Assembly (NCBI GenBank): GCA_032622095.1
Contig: CP136067.1
Coordinates: 43,319,549-43,383,548, forward strand
Reading direction: 5' to 3'
From: Siphonodentalium dalli
Taxonomy: Eukaryota; Mollusca; Scaphopoda; Gadilida; Siphonodentaliidae
DNA length: 64,000 bases
The translations under genes were made by a program, and so were the position numbers. Below are positions 1-45,684 of this stretch, in pieces (the stretch's first letter is position 1; each line of letters starts with the position of its first letter). The notes beneath the pieces were generated by a model that was given only the letters and a program-made list of their open reading frames with translations, did not search any database and had not been told where the DNA came from.

Positions 1-3000
1 ATGTGTACGATATGGCAGTGTTCAGTACATGTAGCCGGGGACTTCTCTCAGTATGTGTACGATATGGCAGTGTTCAGTACATGTAGCAGGGGACTTCTCT
101 CAGTATGTGTACGATATGGCAGTGTTCAGTACATGTAGCAGGGGACTTCTCTCAGTATGTGTACGATATGGCAGTGTTCAGTACATGTAGCAGGGGACTT
201 CTCTCAGTACATGTGTACGATATGGCAGTGTTCAGTACATGTAGCAGGGGACTTCTCTCAGTATGTGTACGATATGGCAGTGTTCAGTACATGTAGCAGG
301 GGACTTCTCTCAGTATGTGTACGATATGGCAGTGTTCAGTACATGTAGCAGGGGACTTCTCTCAGTATGTGTACGATATGGCAGTGTTCAGTACATGTAG
401 CAGGGGACTTCTCGTCAGTATGTGTACGATATGGCAGTGTTCAGTACATGTAGCAGGGGACTTCTCTTCAGTATGTGTACGATATGGCAGTGTTCAGTAC
501 ATGTAGCAGGGGACTTCTCTCAGTATGTGTACGATATGGCAGTGTTCAGTACATGTAGCAGGGGACTTCTCTCAGTATGTGTACGATATGGCAGTGTTCA
601 GTACATGTAGCAGGGGACTTCTCTCAGTATATGTGTACGATATGGCAGTGTTCAGTACATGTAGTAGGGGACTTCTCTCAGTATGTGTACGATATGGCAG
701 TGTTTAGTACATGTAGCAGGGGACTTCTCTCAGTATGTGTACGATATGGCAGTGTTCAGTACATGTAGCAGGGGACTTCTCTCAGTATGTGTACGATATG
801 GCAGTGTTCAGTACATGTAGCAGGGGACTTCTCTCAGTACATGTGTACGATATGGCAGTGTTCAGTACATGTAGCAGGGGACTTCTCTCAGTATATGTAC
901 GATATGGCAGTGTTCAGTACATGTAGCAGGGGACTTCTCTCAGTATGTGTACGATATGGCAGTGTTCAGTACATGTAGCAGGGGACTTCTCTCAGTATGT
1001 GTACGATATGGCAGTGTTCAGTACATGTAGCAGGGGACTTCTCTTCAGTATGTGTACGATATGGCAGTGTTCAGTACATGTAGCAGGGGACTTCTCTTCA
1101 GTATGTGTACGATATGGCAGTGTTCAGTACATGTAGCAGGGGACTTCTCTCAGTATGTGTACGATATGGCAGTGTTCAGTACATGTAGCAGGGGACTTCT
1201 CTCAGTATGTGTACGATATGGCAGTGTTCAGTACATGTAGCAGGGGACTTCTCTCAGTATGTGTACGATATGGCAGTGTTCAGTACATGTAGCAGGGGAC
1301 TTCTCTCAGTATGTGTACGATATGGCAGTGTTCAGTACATGTAGCAGGGGACTTCTCTCAGTATGTGTACGATATGGCAGTGTTCAGTACATGTAGCAGG
1401 GGACTTCTCTCAGTATGTGTACGATATGGCAGTGTTCAGTACATGTAGCAGGGGACTACTCTCTGTATATATGTGTACGATATGGCAGTGTTCAGCACAT
1501 GTAGCAGGGGACTTCTCTCAGTATGTGTACGATATGGCAGTGTTCAGTACATGTAGCAGGGGACTTCTCTCAGTATGTGTACGATATGGCAGTGTTCAGT
1601 ACATGTAGCAGGGGACTTCTCTCAGTAAGTGTACGATATGGCAGTGTTCAGTACATGTAGCAGGGGACTTCTCTGTATATGTGTACGATATGGCAGTGTT
1701 CAGTACATGTAGCAGGGGACTACTCTCTGTATATATGTGTACGATATGGCAGTGTTCAGTACATGTAGTAGGGGACTTCTCTCAGTATGTGTACGATATG
1801 GCAGTGTTCAGTACATGTAGCAGGGGACTTCTCTCAGTATGTGTACGATATGGCAGTGTTCAGTACATGTAGTAGGGGACTTCTCTCAGTGTGTGTACGA
1901 TATGGCAGTGTTCAGTACATGTAGCAGGGGACTTCTCTCAGTGTGTGTACGATATGGCAGTGTTCAGTACATGTAGCAGGGGACTTCTCTCAGTATGTGT
2001 ACGATATGGCAGTGTTCAGTACATGTAGCAGGGGACTTCTCTCAGTATGTGTACGATATGGCAGTGTTCAGTACATGTAGCAGGGGACTTCTCTCAGTAT
2101 GTGTACGATATGGCAGTGTTCAGTACATGTAGCAGGGGACTTCTCTCAGTATGTGTACGATATGGCAGTGTTCAGTACATGTAGCAGGGGACTACTCTCT
2201 GTATATATGTGTACGATATTGCAGTGTTCAGTACATGTAGTAGGGGACTTCTCTCAGTGTGTGTACGATATGGCAGTGTTCAGTACATGTAGCAGGGGAC
2301 TTCTCTCAGTATGTGTACGATATGGCAGTGTTCAGTACATGTAGCAGGGGACTTCTCTCAGTATGTGTACGATATGGCAGTGTTCAGTACATGTAGCAGG
2401 GGACTTCTCTCAGTATGTGTACGATATGGCAGTGTTCAGTACATGTAGCAGGGGACTACTCTCTGTATATATGTGTACGATATGGCAGTGTTCAGTACAT
2501 GTAGTAGGGGACTTCTCTCAGTGTGTGTACGATATGGCAGTGTTCAGTACATGTAGCAGGGGACTTCTCTCAGTATGTGTACGATATGGCAGTGTTCAGT
2601 ACATGTAGCAGGGGACTCCTCTCAGTATGTGTACGATATGGCAGTGTTCAGTACATGTAGCAGGGGACTACTCTCAGTATGTGTACGATATGGCAGTGTT
2701 CAGTACATGTAGCAGGGGACTTCTCTCAGGATGTGTACGATATGGCAGTGTTCAGTACATGTAGCAGGGGACTTCTCTCAGTATGTGTACGATATGGCAG
2801 TGTTCAGTACATGTAGCAGGGGACTTCTCTCAGTATGTGTACGATATGGCAGTGTTCAGTACATGTAGCAGGGGACTTCTCTGTATATGTGTACGATATG
2901 GCAGTGTTCAGTACATGTAGCAGGGGACTTCTCTGTATATGTGTACGATATGGCAGTGTTCAGTACATGTAGCAGGGGACTTCTCTCAGTATGTGTACGA

Positions 3001-6000
3001 TATGGCAGTGTTCAGTACATGTAGCAGGGGACTACTCTCTGTATATATGTGTACGATATGGCAGTGTTCAGTACATGTAGCAGGGGAATTCTCTCAGTAT
3101 GTGTACGATATGGCAGTGTTCAGTACATGTAGCAGGGGACTTCTCTCAGTATGTGTACGATATGGCAGTGTTCAGTACATGTAGCAGGGGACTTCTCTGT
3201 ATATGTGTACGATATGGCAGTGTTCAGTACATGTAGCAGGGGACTTCTCTGTATATGTGTACGATATGGCAGTGTTCAGTACATGTAGCAGGGGACTTCT
3301 CTCAGTATGTGTACGATATGGCAGTGTTCAGTACATGTAGCAGGGGACTACTCTCAGTATATATGTGTACGATATGGCAGTGTTCAGTACATGTAGCAGG
3401 GGACTACTCTCTGTATATATGTGTACGATATGGCAGTGTTCAGTACATGTAGCAGGGGACTACTCTCTGTATATATGTGTACGATATGGCAGTGTTCAGT
3501 ACATGTAGCAGGGGACTACTCTCTGTATATATGTGTACGATATGGCAGTGTTCAGTACATGTAGTAGGGGACTTCTCTCAGTATGTGTACGATATGGCAG
3601 TGTTCAGTACATGTAGCAGGGGACTACTCTCTGTATATATGTGTACGATATGGCAGTGTTCAGTACATGTAGTATGGGACTTCTCTCAGCATGTGTACGA
3701 TATGGCAGTGTTCAGTACATGTAGCAGGGGTCTACTCTCTGTATATATGTGTACGATATGGCAGTGTTCAGTACATGTAGCAGGGGACTTCTCTCAGTAT
3801 GTGTACGATATGGCAGTGTTCAGTACATGTAGCAGGGGACTACTCTCTGTATATATGTGTACGATATGGCAGTGTTCAGTACATGTAGCAGGGGACTTCT
3901 CTCAGTATGTGTACGATATGGCAGTGTTCAGTACATGTAGTAGGGGACTTCTCTCAGTATGTGTACGATATGGCAGTGTTCAGTACATGTAGCAGGGGAC
4001 TACTCTCTGTATATATGTGTACGATATGGCAGTGTTCAGTACATGTATCAGGGGACTACTCTCTGTATATATGTGTACGATATGGCAGTGTTCAGTACAT
4101 GTAGTAGGGGACTTCTCTCAGTATGTGTACGATATGGCAGTGTTCAGTACATGTAGCAGGGGACTACTCTCTGTATATATGTGTACGATATGGCAGTGTT
4201 CAGTACATGTAGTAGGGGACTTCTCTCAGTATGTGTACGATATGGCAGTGTTCAGTACATGTAGCAGGGGACTACTCTCTGTATATATGTGTACGATATG
4301 GCAGTGTTCAGTACATGTAGCAGGGGACTTCTCTCAGTATGTGTACGATATGGCAGTGTTCAGTACATGTAGCAGGGGACTTCTCTGTATATGTGTACGA
4401 TATGGCAGTGTTCAGTACATGTAGCAGGGGACTTCTCTCAGTATGTGTACGATATGGCAGTGTTCAGTACATGTAGTAGGGGACTTCTCTCAGTATGTGT
4501 ACGATATGGCAGTGTTCAGTACATGTAGCAGGGGACTTCTCTCAGTATGTGTACGATATGGCAGTGTTCAGTACATGTAGCAGGGGACTTCTCTGTATAT
4601 GTGTACGATATGGCAGTGTTCAGTACATGTAGCAGGGGACTTCTCTCAGTATGTGTACGATATGGCAGTGTTCAGTACATGTAGCAGGGGACTTCTCTCA
4701 GTATGTGTACGATATGGCAGTGTTCAGTACATGTAGCAGGGGACTACTCTCTGTATATATGTGTACGATATGGCAGTGTTCAGTACATGTAGCAGGGGAC
4801 TACTCTCTGTATATATGTGTACGATATGGCAGTGTTCAGTACATGTAGCAGGGGACTTCTCTCTGTATATATGTGTACGATATGGCAGTGTTCAGAACAT
4901 GTAGCAGGGGACTTCTCTCAGTATGTGTACGATATGGCAGTGTTCAGTACATGCAGCAGGGGACTTCTCTCAGTATGTGTACGATATGGCAGTGTTCAGT
5001 ACATGTAGCAGGGGACTTCTCTCAGTATGTGTACGATATGGCAGTGTTCAGTACATGTAGCAGGGGACTTCTCTCTGTATATATGTGTACGATATGGCAG
5101 TGTTCAGTACATGTAGCAGGGGACTTCTCTCAGTATGTGTACGATATGGCAGTGTTCAGTACATGTAGCAGGGGACTTCTCTCTGTATATATGTGTACGA
5201 TATGGCAGTGTTCAGTACATGTAGCAGGGGACTTCTCTCAGTATGTGTACGATATGGCAGTGTTCAGTACATGTAGCAGGGGACTTCTCTCAGTATGTGT
5301 ACGATATGGCAGTGTTCAGTACATGTAGCAGGGGACTTCTCTCTGTATATATGTGTACGATATGGCAGTGTTCAGTACATGTAGCAGGGGACTTCTCTCT
5401 GTATATATGTGTACGATATGGCAGTGTTCAGTACATGTAGTAGGGTACTTCTCTCAGTATGTGTACGATATGGCAGTGTTCAGTACATGTAGTAGGGGAC
5501 TTCTCTCAGTATGTGTACGATATGGCAGTGTTCAGTACATGTAGCAGGGGACTTCTCTCTGTATATATGTGTACGATATGGCAGTGTTCAGTACATGTAG
5601 CAGGGGACTTCTCTCTGTATATATGTGTACGATATGGCAGTGTTCAGTACATGTAGCAGGGGACTTCTCTCTGTATATATGTGTACGATATGGCAGTGTT
5701 CAGTACATGTAGCAGGGGACTTCTCTCAGTATGTGTACGATATGGCAGTGTTCAGTACATGTAGTAGGGGACTTCTCTCAGTATGTGTACGATATGGCAG
5801 TGTTCAGTACATGTAGCAGGGGACTACTCTCTGTATATATGTGTACGATATGGCAGTGTTCAGTACATGTAGCAGGGGACTTCTCTCAGTATGTGTACGA
5901 TATGGCAGTGTTCAGTACATGTAGCAGGGGACTTCTCTCAGTATGTGTACGATATGGCAGTGTTCAGTACATGTAGCAGGGGACTACTCTCAGTATGTGT

Positions 6001-6904
6001 ACGATATGGCAGTGTTCAGTACATGTAGCAGGGGACTTCTCTCAGTATGTGTACGATATGGCAGTGTTCAGTACATGTAGCAGGGGTCTACTCTCTGTAT
6101 ATATGTGTACGATATGGCAGTGTTCAGTACATGTAGCAGGGGACTTCTCTCAGTATGTGTACGATATGGCAGTGTTCAGTACATGTAGCAGGGGACTACT
6201 CTCAGTATGTGTACGATATGGCAGTGTTCAGTACATGTAGCAGGGGTCTACTCTCTGTATATATGTGTACGATATGGCAGTGTTCAGTACATGTAGCAGG
6301 GGACTACTCTCTGTATATATGTGTACGATATGGCAGTGTTCAGTACATGTAGCAGGGGACTTCTCTCAGTATGTGTACGATATGGCAGTGTTCAGTACAT
6401 GTAGTAGGGGACTTCTCTCAGTATGTGTACGATATGGCAGTGTTCAGTACATGTAGCAGGGGACTTCTCTGTATATGTGTACGATATGGCAGTGTTCAGT
6501 ACATGTAGCAGGGGACTTCTCTCAGTATGTGTACGATATGGCAGTGTTCAGTACATGTAGTAGGGGACTTCTCTCAGTATGTGTACGATATGGCAGTGTT
6601 CAGTACATGTAGCAGGGGACTTCTCTCAGTATGTGTACGGTATGGCAGTGTTCAGTACATGTAGCAGGGGACTTCTCTCAGTATGTGTACGATATGGCAG
6701 TGTTCAGTACATGTAGCAGGGGTCTACTCTCTGTATATATGTGTACGATATGGCAGTGTTCAGTACATGTAGCAGGGGACTTCTCTCTGTATATATGTGT
6801 ACGATATGGCAGTGTTCAGTACATGTAGCAGGGGACTACTCTCTGTATATATGTGTACGATATGGCAGTGTTCAGTACATGTAGCAGGGGACTTCTCTCT
6901 GTAT
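1..6904. repeat. Minisatellite with 52-bp and 56-bp units
   Basis: A head-to-tail array of roughly 130 units fills the left end and continues past base 1. The basic unit is 52 bp and contains GTGTACGATATGGCAGTG, AGTACATGTAGC and GGGGACTTCTC. A 56-bp variant ends in ACTACTCTCTGTATAT. Left of about 1.4 kb nearly all units are the 52-bp type. From about 3.4 kb the two types often alternate, giving a 108-bp dimer. Unit identity is very high, so the array is young or homogenised. It ends at a half unit near 6904. Long reading frames inside it come only from the periodicity and are not genes. Confidence 0.97.
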
Positions 6905-7462
6905 TGATGTTTGGGTTGAAGCTTATGGTGATGACGGATTGAGTGCGTTTTGTCGACCAGCAATTTTTCAGACGCCAAGTAAACATTTCCGACATAAATG
7001 TTCATATTCGCCCCTATATATAGCTGGCACCCCACCAGCTTTGGATTGCGGAGATGTCGGGAATGGATTGACCCAGTCAAAGCTGTTCGAGCAAACTTTG
7101 CCCTCACTTCAAATTCACTTCCAATAAAAACAAAATTGGACAACTTGTGCACATATGTGTTTAATAATACGGGATTGATTATTATTCCGGGTAACAGGAA
7201 TGGAACGAGGATCATGAACTTGTTCCGAGTAACAAGTGACTATTCCGGCGAGGTAACAGGAACAGAGATATAAACTCAATATATATATATGACGTAACTA
7301 GGCATTATATCGATCTTTGATATTTCGACGTTCCGTTGTCGCCATCTACGGTATATTAAATTGTATTGCATGGCAGATTATTTTTGTGCATTAAAATGCG
7401 TAAACCGAATCAACCAACCTTATTTCATAACATGATATGAAGCAGTCCACTGATAATGTTGA
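6905..7462. other. Single-copy spacer between two minisatellites
   Basis: About 560 bp of non-repetitive sequence. A minus-strand frame stays open through it and into the array, but it shows no domain I recognise. I searched it for the missing last exon of the PhyH gene, which should lie on this side, and found nothing convincing. A short ATATATATAT run lies near 7280. Confidence 0.5.
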
Positions 7463-9700
7463 TATACGTATGTAAACCTAGTCTATGAAGAGGTGTGTAA
7501 TGTGGACGGTCATGTACGTATGCAGACCTAGTCTATGAAGAGGTGTGTAATGTGGACGGTCATGTACGTATGCAGACCTAGTCTATGAAGAGGTGTGTAA
7601 TGTGGACGGTCATGTACGTATGCAGACCTAGTCTATGAAGAGGTGTGTAATGTGGACGGTCATGTACGTATGCAGACCTAGTCTATGAAGAGGTGTGTAA
7701 TGTGGACGGTCATGTACGTATGCAGACCTAGTCTATGAAGAGGTGTGTAATGTGGACGGTCATGTACGTATGCAGACCTAGTCTATGAAGAGGTGTGTAA
7801 TGTGGACGGTCATGTGCGTATGCAGACCTAGTCTATGAAGAGGTGTGTGATGTGGACGGTCATGTACGTATGCAGACCTAGTCTATGAAGAGGTGTGTAA
7901 TGTGGACGGTCATGTACGTATGTAGACCTAGATTATGAAGAGGTGTGTACTGAGGTTGGTGTACTTATGTAAAACTAGTTTATGAATAGTTGTGTGCTGA
8001 ATGCGGTGATGTACGTACCGGTATGCAAACCTAGTTTATGAAGAGGGTTGTACCGAGGACGGTCGTGTATGTATACATACATAGTTTATATAGAGGTGTG
8101 TATTGATGACGGTGATGTACGTTTATAGACCTAGTTTATGAAGAGGTGTGTGCTGATGGCGGTGATATACGTATGTAAACCTAGTTTATGAAGAGGTGTG
8201 TGCTGATGGCGGTGATATACGTATGTAAACCTAGTTTATGAAGAGGTGTGTGCTGATGGCGGTGATATACGTATGTAAACCTAGTTTATGAAGAGGTGTT
8301 TACTGTTGACGGTCATGTACGTATGTAGACCTAGTTTATGAAGAGGGTTGTACCGAGGACGGTCATGTACGTATATATATAGTTTATATAGAGGTGTGTA
8401 TTGACGACGGTGATGTACGTTTGTAGACCTAGTTTATGAAGAGGTGTGTGCTGATGGCGGTGATATACGTATGTAAACCTAGTTTATGAAGAGGTGTTTA
8501 CTGTTGACGGTCATGTACGTATGTAGACCTAGCTTATGAAGAGGGGTGTACTGAGGACGGTGATGTACGTATGTAAACCTAGTTTATGAAGAGGTGTTTA
8601 CTGTTGACGGTCATGTACGTATGTAGACCTAGCTTATGAAGAGGGGTGTACTGATGGCGGTGATATACGTATGTAAACATAGTTTATGAAGAGGTGTTTA
8701 CTGTTGACGGTCATGTACGTATGTAGACCTAGTTTATGAAGAGGGTTGTACCGAGGACGGTCATGTACGTATATATATAGTTTATATAGAGGTGTGTATT
8801 GACGACGGTGATGTACGTTTGTAGACCTAGTTTATGAAGAGGTGTGTGCTGATGGCGGTGATATACGTATGTAAACCTAGTTTATGAAGAGGTGTTTACT
8901 GTTGACGGTCATGTACGTATGTAGACCTAGCTTATGAAGAGGGGTGTACTGAGGACGGTGATGTACGTATGTAAACCTAGTTTATGAAGAGGTGTTTACT
9001 GTTGACGGTCATGTACGTATGTAGACCTAGCTTATGAAGAGGGGTGTACTGATGGCGGTGATATACGTATGTAAACATAGTTTATGAAGAGGTGTTTACT
9101 GTTGACGGTCATGTACGTATGTAGACCTAGTTTATGAAGAGGGTTGTACCGAGGACGGTCATGTACGTATATATATAGTTTATATAGAGGTGTGTATTGA
9201 CGACGGTGATGTACGTTTGTAGACCTAGTTTATGAAGAGGTGTGTGCTGATGGCGGTGATATACGTATGTAAACCTAGTTTATGAAGAGGTGTTTACTGT
9301 TGACGGTCATGTACGTATGTAGACCTAGCTTATGAAGAGGGGTGTACTGAGGACGGTGATGTACGTATATACAACCTACATTGTGAAGAGGGGTGTACGG
9401 AGGACGGTGACGCACGTATATAGTCATAGTTTATAAAGAGGCTGTGTTAATGACGGTGATGTACATATGTAGACCTAGCTTATAAGTAGGTGTACCGAGG
9501 ATGCTGTACGTATATAAAAATAGTTTATGAAGAGATGTGTATTGTGGACGGTGATGTACGTATACATGTAAACATGCCTTGTGAAGAGGGGTGTACCGAG
9601 GATGGTGATGTACGTATATATATACGTAGTTTATGAAGAGGGTGTACTAATGACGGAGATGTACGTATGTACACCTAGTTTATTAAGAGGGGATTACTCA
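7463..9700. repeat. 50-bp minisatellite, diverged relative of the 60-bp array
   Basis: About 45 units of roughly 50 bp built on GTACGTATG, AGACCTAG and TATGAAGAGGTGTG. The leftmost units (7510-7920) are almost identical. From about 8290 to 9370 the units differ but form a higher-order repeat of 398 bp: the variant GAGGGTTGTACCGAGG recurs at 8343, 8741 and 9139. On the minus strand each unit contains CACCTCTTCATA followed by a GT-rich stretch, which matches the 3' end and donor of the PhyH exon at 12854-13005. The array is therefore probably an older branch of the adjacent 60-bp expansion. Confidence 0.93.
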
Positions 9701-12700
9701 CGCCGGTGATGTACGTATACATGTATATATAAACCTACCTTGTGAAGAGGGGTGTACCGAGGATGGTGGTGTACGTATACATGTATATATAAACCTACCT
9801 TGTGAAGAGGGGATTACTCACGCCGGTGATGTACGTACACATGTATATATAAACCTACCTTGTGAAGAGGGGATTACTCACGCCGGTGATGTACGTACAC
9901 ATGTATATATAAACCTACCTTGTGAAGAGGGGTGTACTGGTGATGGTGGTGTACGTATACATGTATATATAAACCTACCTTGTGAAGAGGGGTGTACTGG
10001 GGATGGTGGTGTACGTATACATGTATATATAAACCTACCTTGTGAAGAGGGGTGTACTGGGATGGTGGTGTACGTATACATGTATATATAAACCTACCTT
10101 GTGAAGAGGGGATTACTCACGCCGATGATGTACGTACACATGTATATATAAACCTACCTTGTGAAGAGGGGTGTACTGGGGATGGTGGTGTACGTATACA
10201 TGTATATATAAACCTACCTTGTGAAGAGGGGTGTACTGGGATGGTGGTGTACGTATACATGTATATATAAACCTACCTTGTGAAGAGGGGTGTACTGGGG
10301 ATGGTGGTGTACGTATACATGTATATATAAACCTACCTTGTGAAGAGGGTGTACTGGGGATGGTGATGTACGTATACATGTATATATAATCCTACCTTGT
10401 GAAGAGGGGTGTACTGGGGATGGTGATTTACGTATACATGTATATATCAACCTACATTGTGAAGAGGGGTGTACTGGGGATGGTGGTGTACGTATTCATG
10501 TATATATAAACCTACCTTGTGAAGAGGGGTGTACTGGGGATGGTGGTGTACGTATACATGTATATATAAACCTACCTTGTGAAGAGGGGTGTACTGGGGA
10601 TGGTGGTGTACGTATACATGTATATATAAACCTACCTTGTGAAGAGGGGTGTACTGGGGATGGTGGTGTACGTATACATGTATATATAAACCTACCTTGT
10701 GAAGAGGGGTGTACTGGGGATGGTGGTGTACGTATACATGTATATATAAACCTACCTTGTGAAGAGGGGTGTACTGGGGATGGTGGTGTACGTATACATG
10801 TATATATAAACCTACCTTGTGAAGAGGGGTGTACTGGGGATGGTGGTGTACGTATACATGTATATATAAACCTACCTTGTGAAGAGGGGTGTACTGGGGA
10901 TGGTGGTGTACGTATACATGTATATATAAACCTACCTTGTGAAGAGGGGATTACTCACGCCGATGATGTACGTACACATGTATATATAAACCTACCTTGT
11001 GAAGAGGGGTGTACTGGGGATGGTGGTGTACGTATACATGTATATATAAACCTACCTTGTGAAGAGGGGTGTACTGGGGATTGTGGTGTACGTATACATG
11101 TATATATAAACCTACCTTGTGAAGAGGGGTGTACTGGGGATGGTGGTGTACGTATACATGTATATATAAACCTACCGTGTGAAGAGGGGTGTACTGGGGA
11201 TGGTGGTGTACGTATACATGTATATATAAACCTACCTTGTGAAGAGGGGTGTACTGGGGATGGTGGTGTACGTATACATGTATATATAAACCTACCTTGT
11301 GAAGAGGGGTGTACTGGGGATGGTGGTGTACGTATACATGTATATATAAACCTACCTTGTGAAGAGGGGTGTACTGGGGATGGTGGTGTACGTATACATG
11401 TATATATAAACCTACCTTGTGAAGAGGGGTGTACTGGGGATGGTGGTGTACGTATACATGTATATATAAACCTACCTTGTGAAGAGGGGTGTACTGGGGA
11501 TGGTGGTGTACGTATACATGTATATATAAACCTACCTTGTGAAGAGGGGTGTACTGGGGATGGTGGTGTACGTATACATGTATATATAAACCTACCTTTG
11601 TGAAGAGGGGTGTACTGGGGATGGTGGTGTACGTATACATGTATATATAAACCTACCTTGTGAAGAGGGGATTACTCACGCCGATGATGTACGTACACAT
11701 GTATATATAAGCCTACCTTGTGAAGAGGGGTGTACTGGGGATGGTGGTGTACGTATACATGTATATATAAACCTACCTTGTGAAGAGGGGTGTACTGGGG
11801 ATGGTGGTGTACGTATACATGTATATATAAACCTACCTTGTGAAGAGGGGTGTACTGGGGATGGTGGTGTACGTATACATGTATATATAAACCTACCTTG
11901 TGAAGAGGGTGTACTGGGGATGGTGATGTACGTATACATGTATATATAAACCTACCTTGTGAAGAGGGGTGTACTGGGGATGGTGATTTACGTATACATG
12001 TATATATCAACCTACATTGTGAAGAGGGGTGTACTGGGGATGGTGGTGTACGTGTTCATGTATATATAAACCTACCTTGTGAAGAGGGGTGTACTGGGGA
12101 TGGTGGTGTACGTATACATGTATATATAAACCTACCTTGTGAAGAGGGGTGTACTGGGGATGGTGGTGTACGTATACATGTATATATAAACCTACCTTGT
12201 GAAGAGGGGTGTACTGGGGATTGTGGTGTACGTATACATTTATATATAAACCTACCTTGTGAAGAGGGGTGTACTGGGGATGGTGGTGTACGTATACATG
12301 TATATAAACCTACCGTGTGAAGAGGGGTGTACTGGGGATGGTGGTGTACGTATACATGTATATATAAACCTACCTTGTGAAGAGGGGTGTACTGGGGATG
12401 GTGGTGTACGTATACATGTATATATAAACCTACCTTGTGAAGAGGGGTGTACTGGGGATGGTGGTGTACGTATACATGTATATATAAACCTACCTTGTGA
12501 AGATGGGTGTACTGGGGATGGTGGTGTACGTATACATGTATATATAAACCTACCTTGTGAAGAGGGGTGTACTGGGGATGGTGGTGTACGTATACATGTA
12601 TATATAAACCTACCTTGTGAAGAGGGGTGTACTGGGGATGGTGGTGTACGTATACATGTATATATAAACCTACCTTGTGAAGAGGGGTGTACTGGGGATG

Positions 12701-12853
12701 GTGGTGTACGTATACATGTATATATAAACCTACCTTGTGAAGAGGGGTGTACTGGGGATGGTGGTGTACGTATACATGTATATATAAACCTACCTTGTGA
12801 AGATGGGTGTACTGGGGATGGTGGTGTACGTATACATGTATATATAAACCTAC
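9701..12853 (-). repeat. 60-bp minisatellite derived from a PhyH exon-intron junction
   Basis: About 52 nearly identical 60-bp units. Read on the minus strand, each unit is 42 nt encoding VYVHHHPQYTPLHK, then GTAGGTTTATATATACAT. The first 42 nt equal the 3' end of the PhyH exon that ends at 12854, and the next bases equal its splice donor and first intron bases. The array therefore grew from the exon edge, and every unit keeps a GTAGGT donor. Because 60 is divisible by 3, frames stay open for up to about 290 codons, but these are by-products. Marker variants (GGATTACTCACGCC at 10948 and 11668; GGTGATTTACG at 10421 and 11981) show later block duplication of 720 and 1,560 bp. Confidence 0.95.
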
Positions 12854-13005
12854 CTTGTGAAGAGGGGTGTACTGGGGATGGTGGTGTACGTAGACAGGAT
12901 TATTGCTCGCTCGGTTGTATGAAGACAAGAATGCCCAGCGCCGGGTTGGACCACTGTTGGCATCGCTCTTGTGAACGATATTACTGTCGAAAAAGAGACA
13001 ATCAC
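12854..13005 (-). CDS. PhyH-family oxygenase, exon with distal His and 2OG-binding Arg
   Basis: A 152-nt exon between acceptor TTATTTCCAG and donor CACAAG|GTAGGT. It starts with two bases completing a Gly codon and ends in phase 0. It encodes DCLFFDSNIVHKSDAN, then GPTRRW, then NNPVYVHHHPQYTPLHK. In PhyH-family Fe(II)/2-oxoglutarate dioxygenases this is the last double-stranded beta-helix segment: GD-x-FF, the distal metal-ligand His (VHKSDAN) and an Arg about ten residues later that binds 2-oxoglutarate. It continues in phase from the exon ending at 13640. The following intron is filled by minisatellites made from this exon's own 3' end. The final exon was not found and may lie left of the window. 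Closest family type is PhyH / L-proline trans-4-hydroxylase-like; the substrate is unknown. Confidence 0.88.
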
Positions 13006-15085: not shown

Positions 15086-15430
15086 CACCCCATTTGTTTG
15101 GAATATGTTCAACCCATGCATGGCTTCCAGTCTAAAATTGTGACTGAAAATATGGGAAATAGACCACCATGCAACAACAGATTCCATCTCTCAAACAACA
15201 TCGTCCAAAAAGAACGGAAACTAGCTAACCTGGTTCTTGCTCGACGTAAATGAGTTCACAAACTTTACTCAGCTGCTCAACGCGTTCGACGTCAGAACCC
15301 GTCTGACCTCCGACGAAGTTATGTTCGATCCGCCCAGCTTTATGTGACCCCTTCAGGATCTGGATACAAACGAGAGAAAAAAAACCTGTTGACGTTTCGA
15401 TTCCCGGTATGGGTCAGCCTGATAATTCAT
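15086..15430 (+). pseudogene. Unrecognised basic coding-like remnant with an internal stop
   Basis: After a plausible acceptor (CTGGTTATAG) a frame reads HPICLEYVQPMHGFQ, then KERKLANLVLARRK, a TGA at 15251-15253, and VHKLYSAAQRVRRQNPSDLRR, running on to about 15430. The frame is the same on both sides of the single stop, and the TGA could come from a CGA by one transition. The product would be basic and helix-prone. I do not recognise the family. It lies in a PhyH intron on the opposite strand, so a retro-copied or transposon-borne gene fragment is likely. Confidence 0.4.
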
Positions 15431-21302: not shown

Positions 21303-21393
21303 CTGGAGACAACCGTTTTCTTTGTTTGTCACATCCATGGCAATATATGCCGTAATTAGTTGTGGGAAAAGACATCCGTTCTTGTACCAGTAA
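21303..21393 (-). CDS. PhyH-family oxygenase, exon after the HxD motif
   Basis: A 91-nt exon between acceptor TTTTTTCAG and donor CTCCAG|GTAAAC. It begins with one base that completes the Gly codon opened by the previous exon and ends in phase 0. It encodes YWYKNGCLFPQLITAYIA then MDVTNKENGCLQ. This matches the family segment after WHQDYG, where PhyH proteins have YWY...P...A...D..T.ENGCL. The exon is intact with canonical splice sites. Next in order should be the G-T/S-H...GR segment, which is only seen in damaged form near 13.7 kb. Confidence 0.9.
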
Positions 21394-22169: not shown

Positions 22170-22261
22170 CCGTAATCCTGGTGCCACCTAAAGATACCTC
22201 CGGTGAATGGTTGCTTCAATATAATCTTGGTATGGTAATGGTACACTTCACCACCAAGTAT
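22170..22261 (-). CDS. PhyH-family oxygenase, exon with Fe-binding HxD motif
   Basis: A 92-nt exon, acceptor TATATTGCAG and donor GATTACGG|GTAAGA. It starts in phase 0 and ends with two bases of a Gly codon. It encodes [16 protein letters not shown] then [19 protein letters not shown] supplies the first His and the Asp of the 2-His-1-carboxylate iron site, and the [13 protein letters not shown] strand is characteristic of the PhyH family. Both junction phases match the neighbouring exons at 26550 and 21303. No damage seen. This is the most diagnostic exon of the gene. Confidence 0.94.
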
Positions 22262-26549: not shown

Positions 26550-26663
26550 ATTTTCGCTTGTGGTCACGATTCTTTCGCATCGAGATACCATCCCGGTGAC
26601 GTCGTCGCCAGGGTGACTCCAGATTGACAGTCGGCCGCCAGGGACCCCATCTCCAGCAGGAAT
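26550..26663 (-). CDS. PhyH-family oxygenase, HPGDD exon
   Basis: A 114-nt exon (38 codons) in phase 0 at both ends, acceptor TAATCGACAG and donor GAAAAT|GTAAGC. It encodes IPAGDGVPGGRLSIW, then SHPGDDVTGMVSRCERI and VTTSEN. The LW-x-HPGDD-x-x-GM-x-x-R-x-E pattern is typical of the PhyH/L-proline-hydroxylase-like subgroup and precedes the GEVYHYHTK strand supplied by the next exon at 22170. Splice sites are canonical and there is no damage. Confidence 0.93.
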
Positions 26664-30376: not shown

Positions 30377-32084
30377 TCTCATATATATTTTGAAGACCTC
30401 TGTTTGTATGTTTGTATGTATGTTTGTTTGTCATTGATACAAATCTACGATTCTCGACCGATCGGGACGAAACTTGGTACGTGTGTGTAGTTTGACCAGG
30501 CGGTGGACGTTGTCGTATTGGCGAGCCCGTGCGGCGCCCGCTTCGCGCATGCGCAGACGAGATCTCGGAAACGGGTGGAGCTATCGACTTGAAATTTACC
30601 ATGTGAATGTATCTTGCCCCGGATGCAAATTTTATCGGGTCGCCGAGCCCGTGCGACGCCAACTTCGCGCATGCGCAGACGAGATCTCGGAAACGGTGGA
30701 GCTATCGACTTGAAATTTGGTATGTGAATGTATCTTGCCCCGGATACGAATTTTATCGGGTCGCCGAGCCCGTGCGGCGCCCGCTTCACGCATGCGCAGA
30801 CGAGATCTCGGAAACGGGTGGAGCTATCGACTTGAAATTTGGTATGTTAATGTATCTTGCCCCGGATACGAATTTTATCGGGTCGCCGAGCCCTCGCCGA
30901 GCCCGTGCGACGCCAGTTTCGCGCATGCGCAGACAAGATCTCGGAAACGGGTAGAGCTATCGACTTGAAATTTGGTTTTTGAATAGCCCGGACAACGTCG
31001 GGCTCATCGCGAATTTTATCGGGTCGCCGAGCCCGTGCGACGCAAGCTTCGCGCATGCGCAGACGAGATCTCGGAAACGGGTAGAGCTATCGACTTGAAA
31101 TTTGGTATGTGAATGTATCGTGCCCCGGATACGAACTTTATCGTGTCGCCGAGCCCGTGCGACGCCAGCTTCGCGCATGCGAAGACGAGATATCGGAAAC
31201 GGGTGGAGCTATCGACTTGAAATTTGCTATGTGAATGTATCTTGCCCCGGATACGAATTTTATCGGGGTCGCCGAGCCCGTGCAGACCAGATCTCGGAAA
31301 CGGGTAATGTATCTTGCCCCGGATACGAATTTTATCGGGTCGCCGAGCCCGTCCGACGCCAGCTTCGCGCATGCGCAGACAAGATCTCGGAAACGGGTAG
31401 AGCTATCGACTTGAAATTTGGTTTTTGAATAGCCCGGACAACGTCGGGCTCATCGCGAATTTTATCGGGTCGCCGAGCCCGTGCAACGCAAGCTTCGCGC
31501 ATGCGCAGACGAGATCTCGGAAACGGGTGGAGCTATCGACTTGAAATTTGGTATGTGAATGTATCTTGCCCCGGATACGAATTTTATCGGGTCGCCGAGC
31601 CCGTGCGACGCCAGCTTCGCACATGCGCAGACGAGATCTCGGAAACGGGTGGAGATATCGACTTGAAATTTGCCATGTGAATGTATCTTGCCCCAGTTAC
31701 GAATTTTATCGGGTCGCCGAGCCCGTGCGACGCCAGCTTCGCGCATGCGCAAACCAGATCTCGGAAACGGGTGGAGCTATCGACTTGAAATTTGGTTTTT
31801 GAATAGCTATGTATCTTGCCCCGGATACGAATTTTATCGGGTCGCCGAGCCCGTGCGACGCCAGCTTCGCGCATGCGCAGACGAGATCTCGGAAACGGGT
31901 GGAGCTATCGACTTGAAATTTGGTATGTGAATGTATCTTGCCCCGGATACGAATTGTATCGGGTCGCCGAGCCCGTGCGACGCCAGCTTCGCGCATGCGC
32001 ATACCAGATCTCGGAAACGGGTAGAGCTATCGACTTGAAATTTGGTTTTTGAATAGCCCGGACAACGTCGGGCTCATCGGCTAG
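30377..32084 (+). mobile_element. Non-autonomous Helitron, copy 2b, expanded 122-bp repeats
   Basis: Begins TCTCATATATATTTTGAAG at the CTAG of copy 2a and ends with hairpin AGCCCGGACAACGTCGGGCT, then CATCGGCTAG before a host T. It holds about a dozen tandem units of roughly 122 bp (CGCATGCGCAGACGAGATCT, GGAGCTATCGACTTGAAATT, TTGCCCCGGATACGAATTTT). Two internal AGCCCGGACAACGTCGGGCT hairpins at about 30984 and 31432 look like relics of joined copies. Open frames across the units are periodicity effects. Confidence 0.87.
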
Positions 32085-43669: not shown

Positions 43670-45684
43670 GGTATCCAGCTAACTGGGACCTTGGCTAACT
43701 GGGACCTTGGCTAACTGTGACCTCAAGTCAGGCTAACTGGGACCTTGGCTAACTGGGACCTTCTGGCTAACTGGGACCTTGGCTGACTGGGACCTTGGCT
43801 AACTGGGACCTTCAGATATATTATTAATCATTTAATTTTTTTAAAGTCATGAGAAAGTTAAAAACTGGGACCTCAAGTCAGGCTAACTGGGACCTTGGCT
43901 AACTGTGACCTTCTGGCTAACTGGGACCTTGGCTGACTGGGACCTTGGCTAACTGGGACCTTCAGATATATTATTAATCATTTTATTTTTTTAAAGTTAT
44001 GAGAAAGTTAAAAACAAATGAAATGTTAACATTTTAGATAAATAACATTAAACAAAACAGTAAAAACACAATTAGATGGAGTTTTTTTTTAATTAAGATC
44101 TAAAGTATTATTTTTTTATTTAAGACATGACATAATTAGCACACTGCTGAGAGGACCATTTAAATTCAACATTATTTTTTATTTATTTTTTTTATTAAGA
44201 TCCAAAGTATTATTTTTTTATTTAAGACATGACATAATTAGTACATAATTAATACATACCTGTGCTGATATGCTGTGACATTGGGTATCCAGCTAACTGG
44301 GACCTTGGCTAACTGGGACCTTGGCTAACTGGGACCTCAAGTCAGGCTAACTGGGACCTTGGCTAACTGGGACCTTGGCTGACTGGGACCTTGGCTAACT
44401 GGGACCTTCAGATATATTATTAATCATTTTATTTTTTTAAAGTTATGAGAAAGTTAAAAACAAATGAAATGTTAACATTTTAGATAAATAACATTAAACA
44501 AAACAGTAAAAACACAATTAGATGGAGTTTTTTTTTAATTAAGATCTAAAGTATTATTTTTTTATTTAAGACATGACATAATTAGCACACTGCTGAGAGG
44601 ACCATTTAAATTCAACATTATTTTTTATTTATTTTTTTTATTAAGATCCAAAGTATTATTTTTTTATTTAAGACATGACATAATTAGTACATAATTAATA
44701 CATACCTGTGCTGATATGCTGTGACATTGGGTATCCAGCTAACTGGGACCTTGGCTAACTGGGACCTTGGCTAACTGGGACCTCAAGTCAGGCTAACTGG
44801 GACCTTGGCTAACTGGGACCTTCTGGCTAACTGGGACCTTGGCTAACTGGGACCTTGGCTAACTGGGACCTTCAGATATACTATTAATCATTTCATTAAA
44901 ATCAATTTTTATTAAGTCATGAGAAAGTTAAAAACAAATGAAATGTTAACATTTTAGATAAATAACATTAAACAAAACAGTAAAAACACAATAAAAACAA
45001 TATACAAGTCTGCTGGTTTTGCAGTTCTGTGTAGCACGATGGAGGCTGTAGCACTGTATCTGCATGTATATACCCATACAGTACTGGTATGCTGTATTTA
45101 CTCTCTGTCACGCATGTCACGTTCTTCAACTGGTGAGAATACCTGAGTGCATTCTCTGTAAATTGGCCTCTATATAGCTGTCCATATGTTGTCTTTACTG
45201 TTAAATACACTCACTGCTGATGACTGGTCAGTTGTTATAAGTGAACACAAGTAAGCTGACAATCTGATTATGATTGATACATTTTGGTATCCAAAACAAG
45301 CTATCGATATTGGCCGACTTATAATCATTCTGAATTTGGTCGCCGATAAAGCTTTGATGGGTGACTTCCTCGACTCGAATCAAATATTTTTGACCCCCGA
45401 AGCCATTGAAATAGTAATTGAGAGGAGTTTTATCGGATTGAGTACCTTTAAGTCAGGTTGAAACAAATCTAAAACATTTTTGAAGCAATAACATAAATAA
45501 AACAAACAATATTCTATTATCAATGTTCTATTCTACTAATATATGTAATAAATATAACCAAGGTCCCAGTTAGCCAAAGGTCCCAGTTAGCCAAGGTCCC
45601 AGTTGGTCATGGTCCCAGTTATCAAAGGTCCCAGTTAGCCCAAGGTCCCAGTTAGCCAAGGTCCCAGTTAGCTGACATTCCTGC
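43670..45684. mobile_element. 2-kb element with GGCTAACTGGGACCTT arrays at its ends
   Basis: Both termini consist of tandem 16-bp motifs, GGCTAACTGGGACCTT on the left and the complement AAGGTCCCAGTTAGCC on the right (45560-45672). The interior holds further motif blocks at 43855, 44285 and 44735 and a 446-bp direct duplication. The outer flanks are ATGCATGC on both sides (43662 and 45685), a possible 8-bp target duplication, though this sequence is its own complement and so is weak evidence. No transposase is present. A fragment of the AGGTACTCAA MITE is nested at 45345-45452. Confidence 0.78.
45345..45452. repeat. Fragment of the AGGTACTCAA-family MITE
   Basis: Contains AGCTTTGATGGGTGACTTCC, TCGACTCGAATCAAATATTT and TTATCGGATTGAGTACCTTT: one end of the family seen intact at 42451. 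The other end is absent. Confidence 0.85.

Follow-up and report, generated by a model that had tools for sequence, protein, structure and literature searches.

A minisatellite probably seeded by an exon-intron junction of a PhyH-type gene in the scaphopod Siphonodentalium dalli

The stretch of 64,000 nucleotides from the genome of Siphonodentalium dalli analysed here (the window, C7:43319549-43383548) carries exons of a PhyH-type gene on its minus strand, together with a large minisatellite whose repeat unit spans the 3' end of one of these exons and the start of the following intron. Genome searches covered 2.23 Gb in 9 contigs. The mollusc haemocyanin family, tried as a lineage marker, gave no match, a negative to which the search program itself attaches no weight. 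The exons found in the window have AG/GT borders and open reading frames, and are listed below with the first splice donor and the two tiers of the array, in window coordinates and in the direction of transcription.

26550-26663, minus strand: upstream exon of the same gene (IPAGDGVPGGRLSIWSHPGDDVTG...), from exon translation
22170-22261, minus strand: PhyH exon with the HxD motif, from exon translation, its 3' end placed by the reading frame
21303-21393, minus strand: PhyH exon (YWYKNGCLFPQLITAYIAMDVTNKENGCLQ), from exon translation
15230-15359, minus strand: preceding PhyH exon (ILKGSHKAGRIEHNFVGGQTG...), ending in phase 1, from exon translation
12854-13005, minus strand: PhyH-family exon, putative seed of the array through its 3' end, with the acceptor ttatttccag in front, from sequence, translation and homologous exons
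12848-12853, minus strand: first 5' splice site, AAG/GTAGGT, phase 0, from sequence and homologous exons
9705-12896, minus strand: 60-bp junction array, 53 copies, the first copy lying inside the exon end, from Tandem Repeats Finder (TRF) and the unit listing
7460-9718, minus strand: older, degenerate tier of the 60-bp unit, ~50 bp, 45 copies, with a 398-bp higher-order repeat, from TRF, genome search and unit identities

Translated from position 13003, the exon at 12854-13005 reads DCLFFDSNIVHKSDANSGPTRRWAFLSSYNRASNNPVYVHHHPQYTPLHK. The terminal exon, VPDSAIMDCTNMTDMSGKEFLNPKIDKTIKL...QD followed by the stop (VPDSAIMDCTN...), lies outside the window at C7:43301479, behind the acceptor TTGTGTTTGTAG and 30,922 bp after the donor. 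A 235-aa join of six exon translations scored 89.7 bits against PF05721 (cut-off 22) and matched solved PhyH-family enzymes with E values down to 1.4e-18. The last two exons alone reached 14.1 bits, below the cut-off, and the array-bearing exon was not among the 14 matches of a PF05721 family search of the genome. This exon holds the histidine of NIVHKS and the arginine of RRW, which we take to be the distal metal ligand and the 2-oxoglutarate ligand, respectively, so that its loss should kill the enzyme. As the intron ends at a conserved C-terminal exon, the array lies inside an apparently intact PhyH-type gene.

TRF reported a 60-bp period across 9705-12896 (53.3 copies, 95% matches, score 5808), in agreement with the unit listing and the sequence itself. 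The exon ends ...CACCACCATCCCCAGTACACCCCTCTTCACAAG and is followed directly by the donor GTAGGT; the 60-bp unit consists of 43 exonic and 17 intronic nucleotides, and the exon and the next copy are identical at 41 of the 43 exonic positions, a similarity beyond chance at such a length. The initial annotation had described precisely this arrangement, an exon end, GTAGGT donor and intron bases repeated on the minus strand, and all three sources bear it out; its unit of 42 + 18 nucleotides and its estimate of about 52 repeats were close to the measured values. The accompanying statement of an intact donor in every unit is almost correct, as exact AAGGTAGGT occurs 47 times and exact CCCCAGTACACC 44 times in the 53 copies within 12896-9705. 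A limit at position 9701 had also been given, which suits the 60-bp tier but not the array as a whole, since the degenerate ~50-bp tier runs on to 7460. The unit thus spans an exon-intron boundary, as do those of the lancelet minisatellites known as 'mirages'; copies in the 60-bp tier lie in the adjoining intron and retain the splice signals, with the next exon 30.9 kb on, and units of 60 bp and ~50 bp are of minisatellite size (10-160 bp reported). A variant block within the 60-bp array recurs 26 units (1,560 bp) away, which is a mark of block-wise unequal exchange. The same repeated block is at most an indirect sign, from one assembly, that the length of the array may differ between alleles.

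Mean identity to the first unit was 0.94-0.995 in units 1-53 and 0.63-0.70 beyond them, with units longer than 75 bp cut to 50 for the calculation. A 430-nt query made of the exon and part of the array matched the older tier six times at 68-70% identity (E 7e-22 to 3e-31), and the donor motif has not been kept there (no AAGGT in 9704-7460). Genome-wide, this query gave 21 matches, all at one locus and covering both tiers, in a search that skips common words and could therefore miss further places. The array-bearing intron is 30.9 kb long, of which 29,777 bp (96%) is tandem repeat, and most of it is filled by a further array that lies mainly outside the window:

1-6904 (part of C7:43302183-43326452, 24.3 kb), no strand assigned: 52-bp array, unrelated-looking, within the array-bearing intron, from TRF

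A genome-wide search with the 50-aa exon (E up to 1) returned seven places including the exon itself, and all seven have the phase-1 start and the donor position in common. TRF found no array at either junction of four of the seven (L013, L014, L015 and L016, of which L014 and L015 are near-identical copies), and these array-free homologues conserve the exon end HHHPQYTPL at the protein level. These comparisons support the view that the exon predates the arrays and, along with the Pfam match, the earlier proposal that a splice junction of a PhyH gene gave rise to the array. Two of the homologous exons bear arrays of their own. Paralog A (C7:43278973) has a donor array of 31 copies of 40 bp and an acceptor-side array of 8 copies of 92 bp sharing 22 exonic nucleotides, while paralog C (C2:69114590) has a donor array of about 3-6 copies of 66 bp. 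The donor-array units of the window gene and paralogs A and C are thus 60, 40 and 66 bp long, with exonic parts of 43, 39 and 53 nucleotides, and the next copy matches its own exon end at 37/39 positions in paralog A and 50/53 in paralog C. Because unit lengths and exonic parts differ, and the next copy in each array resembles the exon of its own gene, we read the arrays as having arisen separately at an exon older than they are; array birth has probably recurred at the homologous exon. Of 14 array loci (period at least 20, at least 3 copies) within 114 kb, 3 coincide with a junction of this exon in two paralogs; as the region had been selected for its junction arrays, no P value is attached to this fraction as evidence of a hotspot.

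The same comparisons bear on the converse scenario, in which the satellite was there first, spread into the gene and replaced the exon end by conversion. Such an origin would suit an array-rich genome and an intron so largely composed of tandem repeat, but it sits badly with the conservation of the HHHPQYTPL protein end in array-free homologous exons, with the single locus recovered by the 430-nt query (common words being skipped) and with the match of the copies in paralogs A and C to their own exon ends; we give it almost no credence. It is also very improbable that the gene is dead or that the repeat was made by the assembler. Long near-identical arrays are, as a rule, hard to assemble; however, the exons identified have open frames and splice signals, the array contains internal variants as well as the block repeated 26 units away, and a like architecture is seen in two paralogs and in unrelated genes (below).

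A terminal exon similar to that of the window gene was found at four of the seven loci: the window gene, paralog A (twice, 11.2 and 18.6 kb downstream), L014 and L015. The two copies in paralog A (L009), at C7:43290358 and C7:43297768, have equal translations and acceptors and lie 7,410 bp apart, and the TRF arrays near them also repeat at a 7,410-bp offset. An open reading frame (WVGQFVTALFFIIIYG...) after the array of paralog A was considered as its next exon, encoding a transmembrane-like C-terminus, and was rejected as a dispersed repeat. This repeat (C7:43280349-43280477, L008) has an open frame with the transmembrane-like peptide WVGQFVTALFFIIIYGIMMLYYAIKN..., and 150 matches to it were scored of 2375 candidates genome-wide.

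The 48 donors counted in the window gene fall into three groups: the first 9 are open and in phase with the next exon, 32 put it out of frame and 7 run into a stop. In-frame donors without a stop number 10/31 in paralog A and 2/5 in paralog C. Use of donors 2-9 would insert 20 aa per unit in frame before the C-terminal exon, and the array may offer decoy donors and encode a repetitive tail. The read-through tail proposed in the initial annotation could extend no further than 265 aa beyond the exon, the open frame ending at 12058; a 58-bp unit shifts the frame.

Such in-frame donors raise the prospect of a functional array, whose internal alternative donors would yield a ladder of isoforms of the PhyH protein, each with its own number n of VGLYIHVYVHHHPQYTPLHK repeats. 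Human IFI6 has been reported to use downstream repeat units as donors, giving three mRNAs (PMC4526556), and boundary repeats in recent human paralogs reportedly accompany novel introns and alternative transcripts (PMC2812944). However, most donors of the window gene shift the frame or meet a stop, the 40-bp unit of paralog A is not divisible by three, AAGGT is absent from the older tier, and lancelet mirages were reported without disturbance of splicing (PMC3087553). We therefore consider an isoform ladder unlikely.

In our view the array is, with high probability, a mirage minisatellite: a junction-spanning duplication that grew to ~53 copies and is tolerated by way of the first donor. A short tandem duplication, produced by slippage or unequal exchange, would have spanned the 3' end of the PhyH exon, the donor and the start of the intron. 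The array would then have grown by unequal exchange to ~53 x 60 bp beside the older, decayed 50-bp tier. The spliceosome could still take the first, exon-proximal donor, with the rest of the array spliced out, and the array would be tolerated because this donor remains usable and the mRNA and enzyme unchanged. Selection may hold the exon while distal copies decay.

Several points weigh against this account. Identity in the 60-bp tier follows no smooth gradient (0.992, 0.965, 0.995, 0.982, 0.938), and the array of paralog A shows no decay by distance (0.903, 0.910, 0.896, 0.912). Concerted evolution of a single ancestral array, re-matching its exon, could mimic independent births, and no terminal exon was found within the available 2.8-3.2 kb downstream of L012, L013 and L016. 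Short exon-intron matches at the break points are only a hint, since the intronic sequence at those points already belongs to the next copy. Furthermore, the choice of the first donor is a prediction from the sequence, and copy number comes from one assembly.

Other repeats were observed elsewhere in the window. Arrays of 16 bp (GCTAACTGGGACCTTG) occur on one strand at 43678-44992, with the reverse complement nearby at 45558-45672. GC-rich 122-bp arrays (CGAGCCCGTGCGACGCCAGC...) occupy 30522-32057, with more at 23.7-23.9 and 30.0-30.3 kb. One dispersed repeat is present in several copies, at ~21.6-22.1, 27.0-27.6, 39.9-40.2, 56.2-56.7 and 59.5-60.1 kb, as well as at C7:43301.5-43302.0 kb and at L013.

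A genome-wide survey of donor motifs suggested that the window array is not isolated. Three AAGGTANGT motifs with gaps of 25-55 gave 5,369 matches versus 1,254 for the motif reversed, and CAGGTAAGT runs gave 1,467 versus 439, a 3.3- to 4.3-fold excess of tandem runs of the two donor motifs over their reversed forms; these are counts of matches, dominated by long arrays, and loci weigh more. Among the matches listed, the first 36.7 Mb of C1 contained 10 donor clusters, and the first 252.7 Mb contained 15 clusters of the backward control, 4.6 times fewer per Mb. The backward control is not neutral, as a single AAGGTANGT is rarer than its reversed form (54,073 versus 149,130). Acceptor motifs disagree, three TTTTGCAG being rarer than the control (124 versus 553, 0.22x) and three TTTTCAGG commoner (331 versus 194, 1.7x), and there is no clean acceptor claim.

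The upstream side was inspected for all clusters listed (10 AAGGTANGT and 12 CAGGTAAGT). The stretches of L043, L045, L056 and L058 began inside the array, and refetching reached the upstream end in all except L058. An exon was called by eye where an open frame continued beyond the unit into unique sequence and an acceptor-like AG was present. Seven of the 22 clusters abut a recognisable exon (4/10 and 3/12, respectively), with L046 and L061 possible; a Pfam score above the cut-off was obtained for just two of the seven:

L048: DSL exon, 46.0 bits (cut-off 24.2)
L049 and L050: one exon in two near-identical copies, zinc-finger match sub-threshold at 13.8 bits (cut-off 21.2)
L045/L066: exon, 99-bp unit, no Pfam match
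L055: USP47 C-terminal exon, 47.9 bits (cut-off 27)
L057 and L059: exons, no Pfam match

By simple comparison of neighbours, the exonic nucleotides shared with the very next copy number 4 in L048, 11 in L059 and 6 in L046; a longer 108-bp period in L048 carries ~36 exonic nucleotides. The remaining 13 clusters comprise 12 without an exon recognisable by eye and L058, whose upstream end was not reached and which lies within a 67-kb stretch of motif matches. Several of these 13 are dispersed repeats or satellites, and L053, L054, L060 and L062 have a common unit. The units of these four and of L056 (...TTTATAGGTTAACCAATACAG/GTAAGTGGGTG...) have both an acceptor-like and a donor-like site and occur at several genomic places. 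Cytochrome P450 exons, tried as a control for array frequency, were set aside because they look intronless and are thus uninformative on junctions: in 25 of 26 loci retrieved, the domain match extends over 407-459 positions within a single frame, interrupted by one stop in two of them.

We claim from this survey that several junction arrays exist in unrelated genes; the donor excess is a lead rather than a measured hotspot. A far broader proposition is that, in a non-lancelet animal genome, minisatellites arise preferentially at 5' splice junctions, with donor arrays in hundreds of genes and more at donors than at acceptors because extra downstream donors are tolerated, some of them becoming in-frame protein repeat ladders and raw material for introns. 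This we advance only tentatively, and rather doubt that it will hold.

The closest known systems are the mirages of lancelets, length-unstable minisatellites that span exon-intron boundaries in Adh3, troponin C (TnC), the globins BflGb6 and BflGb9, and PGBD5 (PMC3087553; PMC3902484). Units of 10-72 bp are reported in Adh3 and of 150-160 bp in the globins (PMC3087553), and of 60 and 108 bp in PGBD5, which is named as a case along with TnC (PMC3902484). Lancelet haplotypes differ in copy number, reverse transcription PCR suggested that splicing is undisturbed, a model of intron gain was drawn, and the cluster boundaries of the globin mirage escaped homogenisation (PMC3087553). Whereas those boundaries escape, the exon-side units of the window array are among its most uniform. 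The window array numbers ~98 copies in two tiers, in contrast to 6 and 3 in two lancelet BflGb6 haplotypes. Unlike the lancelet mirages, moreover, junction arrays recur here at one exon of a gene family, in a genome of 2.23 Gb with a genome-wide excess of donor motifs. The lancelet genome is about 0.5 Gb, in ~19 chromosomes. Under the name 'mirage' the literature covered held lancelets only, and no whole-genome survey of junction arrays was found in it, subscription journals being largely outside this coverage. Copies at exon boundaries are not described in the accessible part of a report on an earthworm metallothionein with first-intron minisatellites (PMC12783039).

Other systems share single properties with the window array. 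The donor minisatellite of human IFI6 (6-16/G1P3), with a 12-bp unit, was reportedly described by Turri et al. in 1995. Both it and the window array are minisatellites with several splice donors; donor use in IFI6 has been reported in transcripts (PMC4526556), whereas the donors of the window array are predicted from the genomic sequence. Human segmental-duplication paralogs contain variable internal tandem repeats, on average four units of 30 bp, that are likewise of minisatellite type, lie in some cases at exon-intron boundaries and alter gene structure; in the accessible part of that source they are not described as junction-seeded arrays, as the window array is here (PMC2812944). In the Rogers model, introns are gained through tandem duplication of AGGT proto-splice sites (PMC3087553), with a potato RNA-dependent RNA polymerase (RdRp) as a case (PMC4974935). 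Splice signals are copied by tandem duplication both there and at the window locus; however, the model makes new introns, while here an existing intron grew.

In the literature covered, mirages are described from a handful of lancelet genes, and it has been proposed that new introns originate from them. If a genome carried many such arrays, with sister genes at different stages (no array, ~6, 31 and 98 copies), this proposal could be put to the test, as could the way in which the spliceosome chooses among dozens of near-identical donors. The type of feature is thus already known from lancelets; what is new is its scale, its recurrence and its apparently non-lancelet host.
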